Source: Actinomycetes bacterium (GTDB taxonomy: Bacteria > Actinomycetota > Actinomycetes > Prado026). From it: a stretch of DNA of 43,190 bases. The notes below the pieces were generated by a model, which was not told where the DNA came from, did no database searches, and saw only the letters and a program-made list of their open reading frames with translations. The stretch covers positions 1 to 43,190 of the forward strand of contig DATCDE010000361.1 of assembly GCA_036510875.1 (NCBI GenBank), given 5' to 3'. A program made the position numbers and the translations under genes. Shown here in pieces: positions 1 to 2,829 of this stretch. The first letter of the stretch is position 1. Each line of letters begins with the position of its first letter.

Positions 1-47
1 CATCCGTTACCCGAAGGCCGCGTAACCATGTTCGGAAGACCGTCGAT

Positions 48-80
48 AAGCCGTGTGCGGGAAAACCGCACGCACGGTTT
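48..80 (+). ncRNA. Group II intron domain V hairpin
   Basis: This 33-nt hairpin matches the domain V consensus. The lower stem is A48-G55 with C73-T80. The characteristic two-base bulge is C71-G72. The upper stem is T56-G60 with C66-A70, capped by a GAAA-type loop at 61-65. The catalytic triad AGC is at 49-51. Domain V is the most conserved part of group II introns and binds the catalytic magnesium ions. Such agreement is unlikely by chance. Confidence 0.85.
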
Positions 81-91
81 GAAAGGGGGAT

Positions 92-126
92 GGGGAACCA
101 GGGCCGCTACGCGGCTCCTGCGCCCC
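92..126 (+). ncRNA. Group II intron domain VI hairpin
   Basis: This stem-loop lies 11 nt after domain V, as expected for domain VI. Pairing is GGGG 92-95 with CCCC 123-126, CAGG 99-102 with CCTG 117-120, and GCCGC 103-107 with GCGGC 111-115 around the triloop TAC; T116 is bulged. The branch-point adenosine cannot be assigned with certainty: the 3' strand lacks an obvious bulged A, and A129 just below the helix is the nearest candidate. Confidence 0.7.
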
Positions 127-135
127 TGACTACCA

Positions 136-2829
136 ATGACCACCGCCGACCGGTCGACCGAGCGGCCGCGGCTGCTGCTGCTCGACGGGCACTCGCTGGC
201 CTACCGGGCGTTCTACGCGCTGCCGGTCGAGAACTTCTCGACGACGACCGGCCAGCCGACGAATGCCGTCTACGGCTTCACCTCCATGCTGATCAACGCG
301 CTGCGCGATGAGCGGCCCACCCACCTCGCGGTGGCCTTCGACGTCTCCCGGCAGACGTTCCGCAGCGAGGAGTACCCCGAGTACAAGGCCACCCGCAGTG
401 CGACTCCAGACGACTTCAAGGGGCAGGTGAGCCTGATCCAGGAGGTGCTGGGCGCGCTGAACGTCCCGGTGCTCCAGGTCGACGGGTTCGAGGCGGACGA
501 CGTGATCGCCACCTTGACCAGCCAGGCGGAGGCCGCCGGGTTCGAGGTCGACATCGTCTCCGGTGACCGGGACGCGTTCCAGCTGGTCAGCGAGCGGACC
601 ACCGTCCTGTATCCCCGCAAGGGGGTCTCCGACCTGGCCCGGATGACCCCGGCTGCGGTCGAGGAGCGGTACGGCCTCACGCCGACTCAGTACCCCGACT
701 TCGCCGCCCTCCGCGGCGACCCCAGCGACAACCTGCCGAGCATCCCGGGGGTCGGCGACAAGACGGCGGCGAAGTGGGTCCGCGAGTTCGGCTCGCTCGC
801 GGAGCTGATCGACCGGGTGGACGAGGTGCCCGGCAAGGCGGGGGAGTCGCTGCGGGCGCACCTGGCCGAGGTCGAGCGCAACCGTCGGCTGACCGAGCTG
901 GTCCGCGACGTCCCCCTGGACCTGGGGCCGCTGGACCTGGCGCTTCGCCCATGGGACCGGGACGCCGTCCACAAGGTGTTCGACGCCCTGCAGTTCCGGG
1001 TGCTGCGCGACCGCCTCTACCAGACCCTCACGTCGACCGAGCCGGAAGCGGAGTCCGGCGTCGAGGTCACGGTTTCGGCGCTCCCGCCCGGGGAGCTCGC
1101 CGCCTGGCTGGGCTCGCACGCCGCCAACGCCCAGCGCTGCGGGGTCGCCGTCCACGGGACCTGGGGGAGAGGGACCGGGGAAGTATCGGCCGTCGCGGTG
1201 GCCGCCGCCGACGGCAGCGCGGCCTGGTTCGAGCCGGCCGAGCTGTCCGAGGCCGACGACCGGGCGTTCGCAGCCTGGTGCGCCGACCCGACCGCCCCGA
1301 AGGCCCTGCACGACGCCAAGGGGCCACTGCTGGCGCTGCGCGCCCGCGGCTACGACCTGCAGGGGGTGACCAGCGACACCGCGCTGTCGGCCTACCTGGT
1401 GCTCCCCGGCCAGCGCACGTTCGACCTCGCCGACTTGTCACTGCGCTTCCTCAAGCGCGAGCTGCGCGCCGACGACGAGGGCACCGGCCAGCTCTCCTTC
1501 GACGGCGCGGAGGAGGCCGCGTCCGTCGAGGTGCTGGGCGTGCGGGCCGCTGCGGTGATGGCCCTCGCGGACGTGCTGGACGCCGAGCTGCAGGCAAAGG
1601 GGCAGACCCCGCTGCTGCGCGACGTCGAGCTGCCGCTCGTACGGGTGTTGGCCGACCTGGAGCACGTCGGCATCGCCGTGGATGCCGACCACCTAGCCCA
1701 TCTCGAGGCCCACTTCGCCGGCGAGGTGAAGGCCGCCGCCCAGGCGGCGTACGCGGTGGTGGGGCGGGAGTTCAACCTCGGGTCGCCCAAACAGCTGCAG
1801 GGGATCTTGTTCGACGAGCTCGGGCTGCCCAAGACCAAGCGGATCAAGACCGGGTACACCACGGACGCCGACGCGCTGCAGGGGCTGTTCGCGCAGACCG
1901 GGCACCCACTGCTGGAGCACCTGCTGCGGCACCGGGACATGTCCAAGCTGCTGGTGACGGTGGAGGGGCTGCAGAAGTCGGTCTCCGACGACGGCCGGAT
2001 CCACACCACGTTCAACCAGACCGTGGCGGCGACCGGGCGGCTGTCCTCGACCGACCCGAACCTGCAGAACATCCCGATCCGCACCGACGAGGGACGCCGG
2101 ATCCGGCAGGCGTTCGTCGTGGGGCCCGGCTTCGACTCGCTGATGACCGCCGACTACAGCCAGGTCGAGATGCGGATCATGGCGCACCTGTCCGGCGACG
2201 AGGGCCTGATCGCCGCGTTCGCCTCCGGGGAGGACCTGCACACCACCGTCGCGTCGCGGGTGTTCTCGGTGCCGGCGTCCGAGGTGACCCCGGTGATGCG
2301 CGGCCGGATCAAGGCGATGTCGTACGGGCTGGCCTACGGGCTGTCCGCCTACGGGCTGTCCCAGCAGCTCGGCGTCACCCCGGACGAGGCGCGCGGCCTC
2401 ATGGATGAGTACTTCGAGCGCTTCGGCGGCGTGCGCGCCTACCTGCACGACGTCGTCGACGAGGCCCGCCGCACGGGGTACACCGAGACGATCATGGGAC
2501 GGCGGCGCTACCTGCCCGACCTCACCTCCGACAACCGGCAACGGCGCGAGATGGCCGAGCGGATGGCGCTCAACGCGCCGATCCAGGGCTCGGCCGCGGA
2601 CATCATCAAGGTCGCCATGCTGCGCGTCGACGACGGGCTGCGCGCCGCCGGGCTCGCCTCTCGGGTCCTGCTGCAGGTGCACGACGAGCTGGTGCTCGAG
2701 GTCACCGACGCGGAGCAGCCCGAGGTCGAGGTGCTGGTCCGGGCCGAGATGGCCGGTTCCTACCCGCTGCGGGCACCACTCGACGTGTCGGTCGGCTACG
2801 GCCGCACCTGGGACGACGCCGCGCACTGA
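136..2829 (+). CDS. polA: DNA polymerase I
   Basis: This 897-residue family A polymerase acts in Okazaki fragment processing and excision-repair gap filling. The N-terminal ~300 residues form the 5' nuclease domain (LLLLDGHSLAYRAF, GFEADDVIA, SGDRDAFQL, helix-hairpin-helix near IPGVGDKTAAKW). The middle domain lacks the DxE of exonuclease motif I (the region reads CGVAVHGTW), so proofreading is probably lost. Polymerase motif A (DYSQVEMR, near residue 673), motif B (RGRIKAMSYGLAYG, near 724) and motif C (QVHDELV, near 848) are intact. The O-helix has Tyr where E. coli has Phe762, as in Mycobacterium. The ATG fits the family N-terminus. No Shine-Dalgarno lies at a normal distance, because the intron 3' end abuts the start codon. 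Confidence 0.98.
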   Translation: MTTADRSTERPRLLLLDGHSLAYRAFYALPVENFSTTTGQPTNAVYGFTSMLINALRDERPTHLAVAFDVSRQTFRSEEYPEYKATRSATPDDFKGQVSLIQEVLGALNVPVLQVDGFEADDVIATLTSQAEAAGFEVDIVSGDRDAFQLVSERTTVLYPRKGVSDLARMTPAAVEERYGLTPTQYPDFAALRGDPSDNLPSIPGVGDKTAAKWVREFGSLAELIDRVDEVPGKAGESLRAHLAEVERNRRLTELVRDVPLDLGPLDLALRPWDRDAVHKVFDALQFRVLRDRLYQTLTSTEPEAESGVEVTVSALPPGELAAWLGSHAANAQRCGVAVHGTWGRGTGEVSAVAVAAADGSAAWFEPAELSEADDRAFAAWCADPTAPKALHDAKGPLLALRARGYDLQGVTSDTALSAYLVLPGQRTFDLADLSLRFLKRELRADDEGTGQLSFDGAEEAASVEVLGVRAAAVMALADVLDAELQAKGQTPLLRDVELPLVRVLADLEHVGIAVDADHLAHLEAHFAGEVKAAAQAAYAVVGREFNLGSPKQLQGILFDELGLPKTKRIKTGYTTDADALQGLFAQTGHPLLEHLLRHRDMSKLLVTVEGLQKSVSDDGRIHTTFNQTVAATGRLSSTDPNLQNIPIRTDEGRRIRQAFVVGPGFDSLMTADYSQVEMRIMAHLSGDEGLIAAFASGEDLHTTVASRVFSVPASEVTPVMRGRIKAMSYGLAYGLSAYGLSQQLGVTPDEARGLMDEYFERFGGVRAYLHDVVDEARRTGYTETIMGRRRYLPDLTSDNRQRREMAERMALNAPIQGSAADIIKVAMLRVDDGLRAAGLASRVLLQVHDELVLEVTDAEQPEVEVLVRAEMAGSYPLRAPLDVSVGYGRTWDDAAH

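Follow-up and report, generated by a model that had tools for sequence, protein, structure and literature searches.

According to a 2015 review (PMC4424553), bacterial group II introns have three target specificities, namely homing sites, terminators and attC sites. Introns of group IIC (class C) resemble the family described here in that they also have an En-less IEP and a very short IBS1, and in that a DNA motif, in their case terminators or attC, gives specificity (PMC4424553). In contrast, the motif in the present family is a −10 promoter box plus a start codon, and the intron brings a replacement start codon. Other En-less RT/maturases fall into ORF classes g1 and g2–g4/F (Toro and Martinez-Abarca 2013, PMC3552965; "G[g1]", PMC8919778); g1 is actinobacterial (Catenulispora, Rhodococcus), g2 comprises myxobacterial RT/maturases without En, and the 2013 description of g1 and its relatives gave no target sites (PMC3552965). 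The start-codon introns are present in Catenulispora, Mycobacteriaceae and Myxococcota, and g1 and its relatives are likely their IEP class, an agreement in host range and absence of En only, with YCDD in the Nannocystis IEPs as opposed to FADD in g2.

Two further comparisons come from outside the bacteria. In some fungal mitochondrial group II introns, the maturase ORF reads on in frame from the exon upstream. The same continuity is seen in one clade of the family described here, although there a start codon at the first nucleotide of the transcript makes up the whole coding 5' exon. Ty1/Ty3 retrotransposons insert at Pol III start sites and are thus likewise retroelements at transcription starts, but the machinery differs. 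Our literature search, which covered part of the journals, returned no report of leaderless or start-codon targeting by group II introns, and this choice of landing site appears to be previously unrecorded for them.

The intron tail before polA and its copies in the source genome

The window, by which we mean the whole 43,190-nucleotide stretch that was analysed, corresponds to contig C361 in a draft actinomycete genome of 4.05 Mb. Its sole gathering-level Rfam match (cmscan, whole window) is RF00029 (Intron_gpII) at positions 46–130 of the + strand, with 41.0 bits where the gathering score is 40 (E 8.4e-5). Domain V, with its catalytic AGC at 49–51, occupies 46–82 (+) and is followed by domain VI and the 3' tail CTACC at 86–134 (+); both the hairpin of domain V and the stem of domain VI fold (z −2.4), A129 is the candidate branch point in domain VI, and CTACC is nearly invariant in 123 copies. 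Upstream, positions 2–25 (+) read directly as ATC CGT TAC CCG AAG GCC GCG TAA, the IEP C-terminus IRYPKAA*. This tail agrees with the ...GTIRYPKAA ends of the relatives' IEPs, whose C-terminal GLHRLRGTIRYPKAA lies 25–30 nt upstream of domain V. These IEPs are ordinary En-less group II RT/maturases (RVT_1 and GIIM in Pfam, TIGR04416), of which the window shows the IRYPKAA* tail only. An earlier note on this DNA had placed domains V and VI of a sense-oriented group II intron in the translation-initiation region of polA, and the covariance-model match, the AGC and the folding stems bear this out.

A genome-wide search with the first 135 nt found five near-identical copies, all at contig ends, plus more divergent relatives, a number that argues against chance resemblance. 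The 3' parts of the five copies are 99–100% identical over their shared length and finish in ...GCGCCCCTGACTACCA-ATG (CTACCA-ATG), after which they diverge into different genes (polA, pyrE, glnE, a PatB-like lyase and one unknown). A pattern search of the genome for the intron 5' end gave exactly five 5' junctions, again all at contig ends and all of the form TANNNT-N6–7-GTG|GTGCGTCC; the flanks are TAGGATCGGGCCC-GTG|, TACGGTCGACGC-GTG|, TAGGGTCGGGCTC-GTG| (twice, in differing contexts) and TACGATCGGGCCC-GTG|, and GTGCGTCCTGAAAG follows each time. The ATG at 136–138 (+) thus belongs to a set with ATG at 5/5 3' ends and GTG at 5/5 5' junctions. Because the conserved unit includes this ATG and every copy diverges only from codon 2, the 3' boundary coincides with the ATG and does not fall 2–5 nt short of it as had been proposed. 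The 3' exon is the polA coding sequence from codon 2 (139–2829, +), in which Pfam recognises a DNA_pol_A and a 5'-3' exonuclease domain.

No intron interior turned up in the assembly, whose two RT genes belong to other introns. Such a gap, together with the presence of only the 3' part in the window, could mean that the copy here is dead, its remaining 138 nt reduced to a polA 5' leader with a captured ATG. This seems rather unlikely because the identical 3' parts, their stops at contig ends and the alike 5' parts of the five copies point to an unassembled multi-copy element, and because the IEP ORF is undamaged at its end; a missing interior is what is expected of a collapsed multi-copy repeat. 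We are fairly confident that the 5' edge of the window holds the last ~138 nt of a mobile En-less group II intron.

Two other features of this genome may be recorded here. The PatB-like ORF behind one copy (L029:15035–15796, −) matches only the N-terminal ~220 of 384 model positions and is possibly frameshifted or truncated. A second group II intron family (L023 on C80 at ~8.6–10.1 kb, L024 on C199, L025 on C354) has the 3' end CCCCGACCCAACC and does not lie at start codons; the C199 copy carries GGTGTGAGTCCGG in its 5' region.

Empty sites and the target motif

One of the five 5' junctions, on contig C36, aligns with the polA-upstream region of the family relatives G001 and G002, and C36 carries the upstream neighbour of polA; its link to the window is based on synteny, with no assembled join. 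In the two relatives, the empty polA sites read CCTAGGATCGCCGG-GTG-ACC and CCTAGGATCGGCGCC-GTG-ACC, and in alignment GCAGCCTAGGATCGCCGG-GTG-ACC and CGGCCTAGGATCGGCGCC-GTG-ACC stand against GCAGCCTAGGATCGGGCCC-GTG|intron...CTACCA-ATG|ACC-ACC here. Codon 2, ACC, directly follows the native GTG in the relatives just as it follows the ATG in the window, and the ATG is missing from their empty sites. From these sites and flanks, native polA starts at the C36 GTG, and the intron delivers the ATG at 136–138; by this sequence comparison, the intron sits between the native GTG and codon 2. Most polA loci examined in class relatives have TANNNT 6–7 nt before the start codon, and native polA looks leaderless, starting with GTG.

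The picture differs in several respects from that of the earlier note, which took the ATG for polA's own start and held that it had been cut off from a native leader and ribosome binding site. The relatives' polA has neither (TANNNT-N6–7-GTG), the ATG is part of the inserted unit, and the native GTG is still joined to its promoter on C36. Where the note had suggested looking leftwards for a 5' boundary and among relatives for a conserved polA leader, GTGCG is present at the former, and the latter have empty sites instead. Its suggestion that polA expression involves splicing or an intron-borne start signal gains support. Its description of the placement as unusual does not hold within the family, since every member with a readable 5' junction is placed in the same way.

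A second gene gives the same result. The glyA copy in the Mycobacterium-like genome G081 reads GATAGACTGGCGCCC-GTG|GTGCG...CTACCA-ATG|ACCGCC, whereas in 22 congeners the empty site is GATAGACTGGCGCCC-GTG|ACTGCC and variants, with no ATG. These pairs bear on whether the repeated RTG could be a target-site duplication or a co-converted exon, left by an ordinary retroelement that inserted at an ATG. Most copies do have the same codon at both ends (ATG/ATG, or GTG/GTG in four Nannocystis copies and L110). However, the source genome has GTG on the 5' side in 5/5 and ATG on the 3' side in 5/5, and G081, G084 and L076 are likewise GTG/ATG. Moreover, group II reverse splicing creates no target-site duplication. 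On these grounds we reject duplication, which we regard as highly improbable, and take the 3' RTG to be the intron's own.

We searched GTDB species genomes for the family with a domain V pattern that is independent of both junctions, and found at least 119 loci. By record title, the hosts among the matches listed span at least six phyla (Actinomycetota, Myxococcota/other former Deltaproteobacteria, Planctomycetota, Acidobacteriota, Pseudomonadota, Chloroflexota, Nitrospirota). A set of 123 distinct 3' flanks share CTACCA-RTG (ATG in 114, GTG in 9) and diverge from codon 2, which in most cases encodes T, A, R, S or P, a composition like that of protein N-termini. ORF length downstream of the intron RTG (85% versus 47% for random RTG) is too weak a test of gene starts to be relied on. 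On the 5' side, TANNNT precedes the splice-point codon by 6–8 nt in all 34 different junctions (shuffled flanks: mean 0.44, maximum 5), and that codon is ATG or GTG in 32; with L078 added, the counts become 35/35 readable junctions and 33/35. The 34 include an Embleya plasmid copy, TACGGTGCGTCC-ATG|GTGCG, which was found later by protein search and fits the motif. A class-wide search with a strict 5' pattern gave few matches (3/395 genomes), and its two new junctions fit as well.

The exact splice register is ambiguous by 0–2 nt because TG is repeated at both ends. The 5' RTG is followed by GTGCG or TTGCG (TTGCG in many copies in the RTG| register), and the 3' end is ...CCARTG; RTG|GTGCG fits the 5' GUGYG consensus in part of the copies, and RT|G...RT|G fits 5'G...AY3'. 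Three copies (L040, L118, L120), in two different contexts, end in CTACCAATC instead of CTACCAATG, which points to mutation of the 3' end or else to insertion at RT|C. Junctions likewise need not be GUGYG...AY in C.te.I1 of Clostridium tetani and in fungal rRNA introns (PMC3919590, PMC4424553), but unlike for those introns, with their shifted splice sites, no alternative splicing is claimed here.

All that the 34 sites have in common is TANNNT and RTG at an almost constant distance, which is not the fixed 20–35 bp of a homing site. Nor do they follow intrinsic terminators or lie in attC, as for group IIC: all 35 junctions are TANNNT-N6–8-codon, and the empty polA and glyA sites are leaderless starts, not terminators or attC. 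It is less clear, at first sight, whether this regularity reflects the choice of sites or the fate of insertions. If any RTG could be entered, only insertions at leaderless promoters, which keep both host gene and intron expressed, might survive. A kept start codon would make such insertions mild, and, in the clade whose IEP frame is fused to the host start codon, expression through that codon would be selected. Yet silent intergenic and spliced intragenic insertions should then survive too, and none is seen. The rule also extends to phyla where leaderless genes are probably rarer. Finally, short copies that lack an IEP, and hence are not selectable for its expression, occupy the same type of site (L132, L152, L049, L073, L151), which argues for targeting rather than selection for expression. 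We therefore think survival alone an improbable account. Targeting of a leaderless promoter plus start codon, a specificity that would be new for En-less group II introns, is in our judgement the probable one.

Among the short copies, L132 (228 nt from 5' end to domain V) and L152 (280 nt) keep both ends and domains V/VI, lie at leaderless promoters and are possibly trans-mobilised non-autonomous introns.

EBS1–IBS1 pairing and the host reading frame

How the start codon is read can be examined in relatives, since in the source genome EBS1 and most of the IEP lie in the unassembled interior. The loop of a domain I hairpin, GCCG-CUCAYNUCA-CGGC, contains CAYN, which is EBS1 and pairs with the target N-R-T-G. 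Standard pairs form in 19/22 cases at −4 and in 22/22 at each of −3, −2 and −1. Introns at ATG targets have CAT in EBS1 and those at GTG targets CAC, and the next base pairs with position −4; L202 and L076 combine CAT with a GTG target, giving a G-U pair. Watson–Crick pairs at −4 and −3 number 36/44 against 27.9 when shuffled (permutation p 5e-5, an optimistic value since the copies are related). The EBS1–IBS1 pairing of a group II intron is thus present. Since an IBS1 of 4 nt is insufficient alone, the −10 box must contribute to site choice.

The chromosome of Nannocystis poenicansa carries a GTG-specific sub-family (L045, L054, L057, L124; EBS1 CACT, 3' GTG) and an ATG-specific one (L067, L125; EBS1 CATG, 3' ATG), which form a natural retargeting pair. 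Two other pairings were considered and dropped: targeting of Shine-Dalgarno sequences by an anti-SD-like EBS, because the 5' flanks show −10 boxes and not SD motifs, and pairing of CTACC with GGTAG of domain I, because GGTAG is kept in introns without CTACC.

Nine fused introns, from Nannocystis, other Myxococcota, Planctomycetota, Pseudomonadota, Acidobacteriota and one actinobacterial MAG, have 0 stops over their first 600 nt in the frame of the host RTG, whereas the remaining two frames contain 60 and 59. In copies of greater length the host-RTG frame continues into the RT, reaching 633 aa in Nannocystis, and the spacers after the RTG (30, 57, 60, 69, 75, 78 nt) are all divisible by 3; the exception at L081 is an offset of motif matching, and its peptide aligns in frame.

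The open frame could nevertheless be accidental, with the IEP starting internally and the intron RTG acting as a non-coding RNA element, a second IBS1 complementary to EBS1. A Met before the RT domain is conserved in 6/6, so that an ordinary internal start there is possible. The first ~198 residues of the fused IEP are predicted by AlphaFold to lack secondary structure (pLDDT 46, a poor model and a hint only). A substitution test of the fused 5' frame found no codon-position bias and no third-position excess, although the same outcome would arise where the ribozyme holds the sequence constant and selection acts solely to keep the frame open. Within the actinobacterial clade, to which the window intron belongs, the frame closes no later than a conserved motif that lies ~125 codons into it, ~127 codons being the maximum, and the IEP lies in varying frames; expression of the IEP through the host start codon is thus unsupported in that clade. 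Against an accident stand the nine introns with their 0 stops and the divisible spacers, as well as L201, whose 3' RTG is ATG despite EBS1 CAC, with the host gene in frame behind it. Weighing these, we find accident conceivable but doubtful, and consider that introns of the fused clade probably rely on the promoter and start codon of the host gene for expression of their own IEP.

The intron-borne codon may serve the host gene in turn. In the degenerate, internally deleted L073 and L151, the 5' RTG has become CGG and AGG, and the intron ATG still stands before the gene, which suggests that it is able to serve as a start codon; here the intron has possibly taken over that role in full.

Proposed mechanism and implications

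The explanation that we favour, with a good measure of confidence, is an En-less intron that targets leaderless starts and brings its own RTG. What the sequences themselves establish are the boundaries, the empty sites, the target motif, the covariation of EBS1, the open frame and the spread in multiple copies. The intron would insert directly after or within the start RTG of a leaderless gene, at about +3 of a promoter TANNNT-N6–8-RTG, with EBS1 CAYN reading the codon as IBS1 N-R-T-G and the −10 box adding the remaining specificity. Splicing would restore promoter-RTG-codon 2 exactly, and with it a leaderless mRNA. The RTG carried at the 3' end would keep an in-frame host start even in unspliced RNA, which could be translated from it. 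In one clade, the host start codon would also open a frame across the 5' region of the ribozyme into the RT/maturase.

The −10 box could be found in either of two ways. The RNP may contact it through protein, or may use the promoter bubble melted by RNA polymerase. In an open complex the non-template strand is single-stranded from about −11 to +3, and insertion at about +3 would fall at the downstream edge of the bubble. By analogy with the Ty elements, we hypothesise that the introns could be tethered to RNA polymerase.

If this explanation is true, several consequences follow. First, bacterial group II introns would gain a fourth target specificity, the leaderless promoter plus start codon. 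Second, insertions of the family would serve as natural landmarks of leaderless transcription starts in different phyla. Third, transcription initiation would seem able to direct a bacterial retroelement to its site. For the hosts, an intron that comes with its own start codon may stay harmless even in essential genes such as polA, glyA, pyrE and glnE.
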